The position numbers were made by a program, and so were the translations under genes. 64,000 nt of DNA from Candidatus Coatesiibacteriota bacterium (GTDB lineage Bacteria; RBG-13-66-14; B26-G2; JAUVZD01), in assembly GCA_030602715.1 (NCBI GenBank), contig JAUVZD010000004.1:62001-126000 (forward strand), read 5' to 3'. The notes under the pieces were generated by a model. That model worked only from the letters and a program-made list of their open reading frames with translations, did no database searches and had not been told where the DNA came from. This document shows positions 35,541 to 44,366 of this stretch, piece after piece (the first letter of the stretch is position 1; each line of letters starts with the position of its first letter).

Positions 35541-35611
35541 TATCAAAGACATATAACATCATATTGCAATCAGATTTTATTAACTACATAGAATTAAAAA
35601 AGGGAGAAAAT

Positions 35612-37945
35612 ATGAACAGGAATATCACCCCGGTTTTGCTATCGGTATGTCTGCTCATCCTCCTGCCCCTATCGGAAGTGGCAATCGGCCAAACTCTACC
35701 CGGCAATGTAAGTTCGGCAGGCGATACCACCACCACTCTCTCCAGCGATTCCAACACCATCTCCAACGCCAATATCCAGATTACCGTATCCAACGGCGAG
35801 TTTGGAAGGCCCGGTCAGCTCTCCTCGCTCCGTTACAAAACCGCTTCCGGTGAATGGGTGGAGCTCATTGAAGAGGGTCTATTCCTCGGCTTACAGGCGG
35901 GGGAGACATTTCCCGCACCGGGCACCATCACCAAGACCTCCAATACCTCCATCACCTTCCACTCCGACAGTTTCCCGGGCACGGAACCCGTTCCCATAGA
36001 AAGCACGGTAACCTACACCCTCAAAGGCAACCAACTGTGGGTAGACTTCACCCTCACCTTTAGCGACGAGGTTCTTCTGGACTACGGTCTGGAATGCGAT
36101 ATAAATTGTTCGCCTTTCTATGACATCCATAGCTACACCAACCAGAGCAAGGACGGAAAATTTTCACCTCTATCCTCCGATGGGGACGATAAGTTCTTCC
36201 TCAACCAGTTGATATTCTTAGCCGGCGAAGATGTCAGCTTGATGATAGTCCAGCCCAACCCCTACCACTCCACATTTGCAACCTTTCCAAATAAATATCT
36301 CACCTTAATGTTTATAGATTCCGAAGAACCGATATACGACCTTCCCGGTCCCCGCTTAGCCTCCTTGATGGCTCCCGGTCAGACCTTACGCCGGACTCTC
36401 TGCTTCATACCCACTGAGCTGGATTTCAACCCCTGGCAATTCTACAACTTCAACGACTCACCGCTGGTCTATCTCTCCCCCCACAAAGCCGGCTACGACT
36501 CCTCACTGATTTTCATGTGGGATGAGCTTCCCACCGTGTACACGCCGGAGGACGACCCCTGGAGTTTTTCGGAGGACGAAGACGACACCGAAAACTACTG
36601 GATCTCGGAGATGATAAAACAACTGAACAAATATCCCCGCCTAAGATTTAGTTGGCTGATACTGCCCGACGGCATAGGACCTTTTGAGGTGGATTCCGTC
36701 TATTACGAGGACGAGTCACATGATTGGTGGATGACCCACGCAGACCACAGGCTGTTGGATTTTGCAACTGAGGAGTACATTGACTGGCTACACAAGATAA
36801 GGGACAACTATTATCCCTGGGCAAAGCAGGTGGAGTTGGGCAACCACGGCTATCATCACACTCCCAACCTTGACGAACTGCTGAAGCACGAGTTTATCTA
36901 TTTTGATGAATTTCGTGACTCCAACATGATCGCCAAGATAGTATCGGACATGGATGCTCTAGGGTTAAATTGCTCCGTCCATGCGGTCCGTTTTCCCGGA
37001 TTCAAATATACCCGCTCCACGCTATGGGCTATCCTGGATAACGATTTCATCTTCTTGGATAATGGTAAAAGACTGGATGAATTCTACATGTCCTTCTACT
37101 ACAAGGATGGAAAGACAATATCCAGCGTGAATACCTGCTGGTGGTCCGACTACCACCCCGACACCGATTGGGGCAGACCTTTCTCCATGATAGGCCAACA
37201 ATTGGACAAACACAAGATAGCCCTTCTGGGCGGCCATCCGGTGGAGACTTTCTACGAAGACTCCCCCGAAGCATACCAGCGCTTTGATGAGATGATGGGG
37301 CGCATCTTCAATGAATATCCCCACGCTATCTTCTACGGGGCAAGAGAGATGGGCGCATTTATGATAGCTGTGAATGAAATTGACCGCATACGCTATCAAA
37401 TTTCGGACGGATATCTGGAAGTCAACCTCAACGGTGCCGTCCCCCAGGACACCACCCTAATCATCCACCTGCCGGACAATATGTTCATCACCTCAAACAC
37501 CGTCGTTATTGACGGCAGTATAATGAACGTCTCCCTGACCAAGAAGAATGATTTTCTGGTCTACATCATCCTACCCGCAATCTCTGAAGGAGCGCACACG
37601 ATACAGATTCCCATATCCACTATGCCTGTTCCATCAACAACCAACATATCGGTCAAATTATTTCCTAATCCCATCAGCTCAACTCAACAACTAAACGCAA
37701 TAGTAAACTGTCGCACAACCATCACCAATTGTTCTACTAGGGTCTATGACATCGCCGGCAACCTGATTATGGAGATAGACAATAGTCACTTCACCGCCCT
37801 CTCCGACACCACCAGAACTTTAGCCTTCAACCTCCTGGGACCGGGCAGTAACCTGGCTAACGGCGTCTACCTCCTCCATTTCAGCATCCAGACCGCCTGC
37901 GGTGAATTATTGCACCAGGTGGAGAAACTCGCCGTCCTGAAGTAA
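35612..37945 (+). CDS. secreted polysaccharide-deacetylase-like protein with type IX-like C-terminal sorting domain
   Basis: 777 residues from ATG 35612 (AGGGAG just upstream); an earlier in-frame ATG lacks this. A signal peptide ends near VAIGQTLPG (residue 27). A beta-rich N-terminal domain is followed, near residues 290-620, by a deacetylase-like region with WDELPTVYTP, FSWLILPDG and LGNHGYHHTPNLDEL, the last matching a metal-binding His block. The C-terminal 80 residues (VKLFPNPIS ... VYDIAGNLI ... LANGVYLLHF ... LAVLK) match the type A sorting or FlgD-like domains of FCB bacteria. Substrate unknown; the catalytic assignment is tentative. Confidence 0.65.
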   Translation: MNRNITPVLLSVCLLILLPLSEVAIGQTLPGNVSSAGDTTTTLSSDSNTISNANIQITVSNGEFGRPGQLSSLRYKTASGEWVELIEEGLFLGLQAGETFPAPGTITKTSNTSITFHSDSFPGTEPVPIESTVTYTLKGNQLWVDFTLTFSDEVLLDYGLECDINCSPFYDIHSYTNQSKDGKFSPLSSDGDDKFFLNQLIFLAGEDVSLMIVQPNPYHSTFATFPNKYLTLMFIDSEEPIYDLPGPRLASLMAPGQTLRRTLCFIPTELDFNPWQFYNFNDSPLVYLSPHKAGYDSSLIFMWDELPTVYTPEDDPWSFSEDEDDTENYWISEMIKQLNKYPRLRFSWLILPDGIGPFEVDSVYYEDESHDWWMTHADHRLLDFATEEYIDWLHKIRDNYYPWAKQVELGNHGYHHTPNLDELLKHEFIYFDEFRDSNMIAKIVSDMDALGLNCSVHAVRFPGFKYTRSTLWAILDNDFIFLDNGKRLDEFYMSFYYKDGKTISSVNTCWWSDYHPDTDWGRPFSMIGQQLDKHKIALLGGHPVETFYEDSPEAYQRFDEMMGRIFNEYPHAIFYGAREMGAFMIAVNEIDRIRYQISDGYLEVNLNGAVPQDTTLIIHLPDNMFITSNTVVIDGSIMNVSLTKKNDFLVYIILPAISEGAHTIQIPISTMPVPSTTNISVKLFPNPISSTQQLNAIVNCRTTITNCSTRVYDIAGNLIMEIDNSHFTALSDTTRTLAFNLLGPGSNLANGVYLLHFSIQTACGELLHQVEKLAVLK

Positions 37946-43078: not shown

Positions 43079-43226
43079 AACTCCGAAATGGTTCATCAAT
43101 GACCAAAGATGAATATGAAGTTGCCTGGTGGATGAGGATTTCCGCAAGCCTGAATATTTATACCTGAAATCTATTGGACATGCTTAACCATTCATTATAT
43201 AATCTTCTCATAATTTTTTCACCAAC

Positions 43227-43334
43227 ACCTACCCGGAAGTCCTGCAAGCCGCCCAACTATACGACCCCCCTTACAATTATTCTCTCAATGTCCAACCCTC
43301 CAGCCTGGGGAAGATTCGCTCCCTCTATCACTAG
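43227..43334 (+). pseudogene. 3' remnant of a selenoprotein paralogue
   Basis: Reads TYPEVLQAAQLYDPPYNYS, then LNVQPSSLGKIRSLYH and TAG. It aligns over 36 codons with the end of the gene at 43500-44312 (TYREVLQAAQLYDPPYDYA, LNIQPSSLGVIRSLYH). No start or upstream part is left in 43079-43226, which contains only a 22-codon frame of no clear meaning. The downstream terminator was copied too. Confidence 0.8.
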
Positions 43335-43358
43335 TAAAAGACCAAAGGTTCTTATTTG

Positions 43359-43397
43359 ACAACGCCGCCCCTGAGGGAGGCGTTGTTAATTTTTTTA
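43359..43397 (+). terminator. intrinsic terminator of the remnant gene
   Basis: ACAACGCC ... GGCGTTGT stem with a GCCC/GGGA extension and a 4-base loop, followed by TAATTTTTTT. The same design follows the intact paralogue at 44336. Confidence 0.85.
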
Positions 43398-43429: not shown

Positions 43430-43458
43430 TTGACAGGGTGAACTATTCATGTTAAATT
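43430..43458 (+). promoter_or_regulatory. promoter for the selenoprotein gene
   Basis: TTGACA at 43430-43435, a 17-base spacer and TAAATT at 43453-43458. In the leader, GTTGTT-TC-AACAAC (43469-43482) is an inverted repeat that could be an operator or hairpin. Confidence 0.75.
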
Positions 43459-43499
43459 ATATGCAATAGTTGTTTCAACAACAATCCAAGGAGGCGAAA

Positions 43500-44312
43500 A
43501 TGAGAGGGAAGGTGAAACTGCTCTGGGCTTTCATGATTCCATTGACAATTGTCGCTTTTTCCGTTCCTGCGGGAGGCGCCGACAGGTGTGTTCTCACCGA
43601 GCTCTTCGGAACCACCACTTGACCGTACTGCCCTAGTGCTGTAAATGCGCTGGTTCAGCTGCATGAAAACGACTTCACCATAGAAGAACTCGCCACCATC
43701 TACTATGTCAATGGTAGTCCCTTCACCCAAACCTTCTGGAACGAACGTTGGGCTCTATACGACGGCTACGCTGTCCCCGACTGCTGGTTTGATGGGGTTT
43801 ACCACCATTTGGGCGGTGGCAGTCCCTACAGTTACTACCTGAGCTACATACAAACCCGCATAGCGGTGCCCAGCCCCATGACCATAGACATCTACGAATC
43901 CAAGGGCAAAGAAGAATTTGATGTCACCATTGACATCTACCTGGAGGATGATGTCCCCTCAGGAAGCAAAATCTATCTGATTGCTTGCGAAAACTACATC
44001 TACTACGGCGGAAAGACCTACCAGTTCTTGTATCGCTGTGAAAACTCACAATACCCCATCATCCACGGCGAGTCCCTGGGAATCTACAACGCCGGGGAGA
44101 GCACCACCTTCTACGCCACCGTGGACTTTGACGACCTGGCTTACGAGAACCCGTTGATGATGTATCTGGTCTGCTGGGTGCAGGATATGGACTCGCAATC
44201 GCCCACCTACCGGGAAGTCCTGCAAGCCGCTCAACTATACGACCCCCCCTACGATTACGCTCTCAACATCCAGCCCTCCAGTCTGGGGGTAATTCGTTCC
44301 CTCTACCACTAG
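43500..44312 (+). CDS. secreted thioredoxin-fold selenoprotein (Omp28-like), Sec at the active site
   Basis: 270 residues if the TGA at 43620-43622 is read as selenocysteine (Sec41). AAGGAGG precedes the ATG. A signal peptide (KLLWAFMIPLTIVAFSVPA) is followed by a thioredoxin-like domain: VLTELFGTTT-U-PYC-PSAVNAL, Sec41 and Cys44 forming a U-x-x-C pair, and a cis-Pro-like GYAVPDCWFDG (P93). A beta-sandwich domain fills residues 108-255. The layout resembles Omp28-related proteins, which normally have CxxC. There are no further stops over 229 codons after the TGA. A SECIS-like hairpin lies downstream of it. Likely a periplasmic or surface redox enzyme; the substrate is unknown. Selenium genes must lie elsewhere. 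Confidence 0.8.
43645..43664 (+). promoter_or_regulatory. SECIS-like hairpin downstream of the Sec codon
   Basis: ATGC-GCTG, loop GTT, CAGC-T-GCAT: eight base pairs with a single bulged U at 43660; opening the last pair gives the loop GGUUC. The apical GGU is about 30 bases after the UGA, within the range of bacterial SECIS elements, which also carry a bulged U and a loop G. In E. coli fdhF the bulged U is on the 5' arm; here it is on the 3' arm. Confidence 0.65.
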
Positions 44313-44335: not shown

Positions 44336-44366
44336 AACAACGCCGCCCCCGAGGGCGGCGTTGTTT
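44336..44366 (+). terminator. intrinsic terminator of the selenoprotein gene
   Basis: AACAACGCCGCCC and GGGCGGCGTTGTT form a perfect 13-bp stem around CCGA. Confidence 0.85.

Follow-up and report, generated by a model that had tools for sequence, protein, structure and literature searches.

Porphyromonas gingivalis HBP35 (structure 5y1a) is an exported protein made of a thioredoxin domain and a beta-rich C-terminal part; it reduces insulin faster than Escherichia coli thioredoxin, a reaction for which both active-site cysteines are needed, complements an E. coli dsbA mutant and binds hemin (PMC2907840). Its secretion by the type IX secretion system (T9SS) proceeds via its own C-terminal domain (PMC2907840, PMC3120885). 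Similar folds are found in the Omp28 family (PF11551, NF033782, structure 2r2c) and in the DUF1223 family (PF06764, structure 2axo), a Cys form that carries the motif ELFTSxxCxxCPxAxxAL. A selenocysteine (Sec) protein of this kind has also been catalogued: GOS_C was a new family of the 2008 ocean metagenome survey, a Trx-fold UxxC selenoprotein (PMC2398784), and in a 2026 review NF045500 appears under the name "hypothetical protein GOS_C", again with UxxC (PMC13188914); NCBIfam names this model "Omp28-related selenoprotein".

The window, i.e., the whole 64,000-nucleotide stretch of a Ca. Coatesbacteria genome analyzed here, contains a gene whose frame is interrupted only once, by a TGA in the context ELFGTTT-TGA-PYCPSA (Table 1). 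The preliminary description, made from the letters of the window, had placed this TGA at the first Cys of a CPYC-type site and counted 229 more open codons after it; both statements were confirmed, the frame running up to the TAG at 44310-44312. Annotated with the standard code, the gene would end at the TGA, and all that would remain of it downstream is a truncated 167-amino-acid ORF at 43809. Insertion of Sec is by far the best reading of this codon, and we consider it very probable that the resulting U-P-Y-C protein belongs to the HBP35/Omp28/DUF1223 superfamily and acts, after export, as a thiol(selenol)-disulfide oxidoreductase.

The promoter and the Shine-Dalgarno sequence that had been proposed for the gene were both located, with three promoter-like sites found in the region where 1.3 would be expected. 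Its "strong terminator" stood in part: the stem is perfect, but the T-tract is poor. The proposed signal peptide was upheld on inspection of the N terminus, which would direct export, and nearly all full-length relatives have an equivalent in the alignment.

Table 1 Features of the U-P-Y-C gene and its flanks, in positions of the window.
Feature	Position	Strand	Evidence
Tandem-paralogue remnant, an 87% copy of the last ~36 codons of the gene and of its 3′ hairpin	43226-43387	+	Sequence comparison
Sigma-70-like promoter, TTGACA-17-TAAATT	43430-43458	+	Promoter scan, 10/12 matches
Shine-Dalgarno sequence, AAGGAGG	43488-43494	+	Sequence
Predicted selenoprotein gene, ATG to TAG, 270 residues with Sec41 (TGA read through)	43500-44312	+	Sequence, alignment
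Signal-peptide-like N terminus, MRGKVKLLWAFMIPLTIVAFSVPAGGA, without a lipobox cysteine	43500-43580	+	Inspection by eye
Thioredoxin-fold domain, about residues 31-121 (predicted)	43590-43862	+	AlphaFold secondary structure, Foldseek, alignment
In-frame TGA, very probably the codon for Sec41 in the U-P-Y-C redox site	43620-43622	+	Aligned column, Sec machinery in genome
Putative bacterial SECIS hairpin, loop UGUAAAU, 7-bp upper stem	43625-43662	+	RNA folding, -15.2 kcal/mol
Cys44, second residue of the U-P-Y-C site	43629-43631	+	
C-terminal beta-sandwich domain, about residues 127-247 (predicted)	43878-44240	+	AlphaFold, Foldseek
Disordered C-terminal tail with family motif PSSLGxI[KR]xLY (predicted)	44277-44309	+	pLDDT below 50
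Terminator-like hairpin, perfect 13-bp stem, weak T-tract	44336-44365	+	Not listed by terminator scan

To place the gene in its phylum, we used a set of 14 Ca. Coatesbacteria genomes, and relatives were found in 12 of them, often as several paralogues per genome, some in tandem. Single-sequence scans of the genome contigs and viral contigs found no relatives. Of the 25 aligned members, window gene included, 21 have TGA and 4 have TGC as the codon of the first active-site column, so that Cys, for which the preliminary description had suggested looking at position 41, does occur there, as it does at the first site of 2axo and 5y1a. The second Cys, the cis-Pro-like Pro93 (in VPDCWFDG), Glu34 and Arg83 are invariant. 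Near-identical orthologues within one genus differ at the first site (TGA in loci L032 and L038, TGC in L027 and L030), and the tree requires at least three changes of the Sec label. The window protein itself forms a long branch (1.55), which makes its placement unsure, and has unusual residues after the site (SAVNAL, against A[DE]xA in most relatives).

This shared column decides whether the TGA could be a nonsense mutation that inactivated a gene with Cys at this site. Decay does occur at this very place, since the remnant just upstream is a clear paralogue fragment, which shows that the genome once carried a neighboring copy, since deleted (intact tandem paralogues are found in genomes G003 and G004). 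However, 20 further genes from the phylum have their TGA at this very column, by which the pseudogene reading is refuted, and the 229 downstream codons are open, conserved and coding-like: their frame scores 0.167 log-odds per codon, against -0.34 for each of the other two frames, which contain 9-10 stops, and the C-terminal domain is kept in 24 relatives. With the Sec machinery also present in the genome, we regard decay as very improbable, in agreement with the initial view of the gene as not decaying. As the column recurs in independent genomes, the TGA is neither a product of chance nor an assembly error, and a sequencing error at this codon was likewise rejected.

The 2.31-Mb genome encodes all four components for which a search had been suggested. 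Profile searches identified selA (contig C3, 335759-336904, 446.6 bits) and selB (C3, 338074-339957, 317.8 bits), which lie side by side with a tRNA-Sec of anticodon TCA, reading UGA as tRNA-Sec(UCA) (C3, 336968-337061), and selD on contig C11 (355.9 bits). The selD gene (L021:1480-1620) has its own in-frame TGA, in AAG-U-AAK, which we take to be the known Sec position of SelD, making it a second selenoprotein of this genome. A second match above the RF01852 cut-off in the same genome was a tRNA-Leu. Across the 14 genomes, SelB was found above cut-off in 13, and 11 have a tRNA-Sec that scores at least 64 bits. These genes also speak against a genome-wide reassignment of TGA to Trp, Gly or Cys. 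The frame would be open under any such code, but TGA ends 9 of the 28 long ORFs of the window and Trp is encoded by TGG (208 uses); the stops in these ordinary genes refute a recoded genetic code, and we give this explanation even less credence than decay.

Published rules for bacterial SECIS elements call for a loop of 3-9 nt with a G in its first two positions, located 16-37 nt after the UGA, on an upper stem of 4-16 bp with a minimum free energy of at most -7.5 (PMC13188914). The hairpin that follows the TGA in the window satisfies all of these constraints, with a 7-nt loop, a G at position 2 and a distance of 17 nt from the UGA; the z-score of its folding energy is -2.4. When synonymous codons were randomized, the native sequence was more stable than 90% of the randomizations in 8 of the 13 Sec genes that belong to the window gene's class. 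The hairpin is nevertheless supportive evidence only, because the window gene scored modestly in this test (0.07) and the Cys homologues, two of four of which also scored well, were not clearly different from the Sec genes.

The preliminary description had assigned the protein a thioredoxin fold resembling that of Omp28-like proteins, and structure prediction supports this. The AlphaFold model (mean pLDDT 83.8) has a thioredoxin domain followed by a beta-sandwich and a disordered tail. A strand at residues 31-38 precedes the UPYC site (41-44), which would sit at the start of helix 1 (44-58); together with the invariant cis-Pro-like P93, the model thus predicts the beta-alpha-beta arrangement and active-site position of a thioredoxin-fold oxidoreductase. 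The top Foldseek matches were HBP35 (5y1a, E 1.8e-10, TM 0.67) and the DUF1223 protein 2axo (E 8.7e-9), with the Omp28 domain 2r2c lower in the list, and sequence profiles agree with these matches. Like HBP35, the window protein would be exported and would combine a thioredoxin domain with a beta-rich C-terminal part, and the CxxC of HBP35 falls at the same place as U-P-Y-C; however, HBP35 has Cys rather than Sec, shares only 14% identity, and carries the T9SS-targeting C-terminal domain that the window protein lacks. The DUF1223 motif and fold are also alike, with a weak sequence match (E 0.22). The predicted C-terminal domain resembles 2r2c, and 12 of the 25 relatives match PF11551 at E up to 0.1 (best 2e-17). 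The window protein gave no match to PF11551 even at E 1, the gathering score not being reached, and differs from the Omp28 family in having no lipobox.

The protein had been put forward as a new selenoprotein type. This holds only in a narrower form, since an Omp28-type selenoprotein is already catalogued as NF045500/GOS_C, with which the window protein shares the Trx-like fold, UxxC and the relatedness to Omp28. In the window protein, residues 26-234 align to the model, with 48.7 bits (E 6.9e-13), far below its curated cut-off of 200 bits. Every Coatesbacteria member of the family matches NF045500 weakly, and the cut-off was reached in none of the 14 Coatesbacteria genomes and by none of the ten Sec relatives tested, which places these lineages outside the model. 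On these sequence scores, the window protein is a divergent, uncatalogued new subfamily of a known selenoprotein kind. In a literature search, no paper was found that pairs selenoproteins with Coatesbacteria, and Omp28 and selenocysteine occurred together only in an unrelated Helicobacter genomics study. The family adds a phylum-wide, multi-copy subfamily of secreted selenoproteins beyond the catalogued model. By tying the unassigned GOS_C selenoproteins to HBP35, whose thioredoxin activity has been measured, it also gives them a testable function.

Because the fold matches both HBP35 and DUF1223, and because HBP35 reduces insulin and complements dsbA, the most likely role of the protein would be that of an extracytoplasmic selenol/thiol-disulfide oxidoreductase. 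SelB carrying Sec-tRNA(UCA) would bind the hairpin after the UGA and insert Sec, and the product would be exported through its N-terminal signal peptide. In the folded thioredoxin domain, as modeled, Sec41 would lie at the N terminus of the first helix, with Cys44 as the resolving residue. The selenolate would then attack substrate disulfides or oxidized thiols outside the cytoplasm, Cys44 would resolve the selenenylsulfide, and some partner would reset the enzyme. In selenoenzymes in general, Sec is a faster nucleophile than Cys and more resistant to over-oxidation. Regarding the partner, the only DsbD/CcdA-like match in the genome was weak, below cut-off and located beside an ArsR-type gene, and the gene neighbors (an Fpg glycosylase, an MscL-like protein and an M50 protease with CBS) point to no partner.

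The chemistry could also run in another direction: with Sec inserted, the protein might work chiefly as a DsbA-like dithiol oxidase or as an isomerase, and not as a reductase or in the handling of peroxides. We hold this to be possible, although less likely than the alternative: many secreted CxxC proteins oxidize or isomerize, and the nearest solved fold, HBP35, acts in place of DsbA besides reducing insulin, but a profile search of the genome found no VKOR homologue, and Sec usually favors reductive or exchange chemistry, which we count against an oxidase or isomerase. The hemin binding of HBP35 (PMC2907840) suggests, in addition, a surface haem- or metal-binding protein in which the U/C pair is a ligand rather than a catalyst; this appears unlikely, as the invariant UxxC/CxxC and the cis-Pro are a thioredoxin-fold redox signature.

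A second family member in the window genome (L063:1360-2115; contig C18, 50390-50953) carries Gly in place of Sec (AVW-G-PHCP) and hence lacks the first redox residue; its GGA codon is one base from TGA.

As the family as a whole is too diverse in alignment for a peptide pattern, a DNA pattern, ExF(4x)-TGA-GYCP, was scanned in 85,000 genomes. Of the 62 stretches that it matched, over 30 are similar frames with a signal peptide, and the rest look like chance. Most of these frames come from Cloacimonadota, the others from Eisenbacteria, Krumholzibacteriia, Planctomycetota, Marinimicrobia, Chloroflexi and Coatesbacteria. Sorting domains of T9SS type A were found on five Omp28-like candidate Sec proteins (L074, L078, L087, L101 and L128) from Cloacimonadota, Eisenbacteria and Marinimicrobia, which are therefore candidate surface-exposed selenoproteins. 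We lean, by a small measure, towards the view that the window gene is part of a large radiation, so far uncatalogued, of exported HBP35/Omp28-like thioredoxins with Sec, which would extend over Coatesbacteria, Cloacimonadota, Eisenbacteria, Krumholzibacteria, Planctomycetota, Marinimicrobia and Chloroflexota, with several T9SS tails that would put Sec enzymes on the outer cell surface. The Coatesbacteria subfamily also prompts one to ask how Sec enzymes beyond the cytoplasm or at the cell surface are reduced and how they are exported.

In the window genome, a PorU-like T9SS sortase was found above cut-off (contig C10, 22281-25679). A profile search found no TIGR04183 type A sorting domain in the window protein, whose tail, PSSLGxIRSLY, differs from T9SS tails. 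Positions 44277-44309 of the window and loci L006, L048, L060, L129 and L135 show a tail of the form P-[ST]-S-[LWVI]-G-x-[IV]-[KR]-x-[LMQ]-[YF], with which not only the Sec family but also other Coatesbacteria ORFs, not matched to the family, end at the C terminus, e.g., NVQPASLGVIKAMYQ in the window genome. It may be an unrecognized sorting or anchoring tail. Elsewhere in the window, positions 35564-37945 encode a secreted protein of large size whose match to a T9SS sorting tail is weak (E 0.00079).
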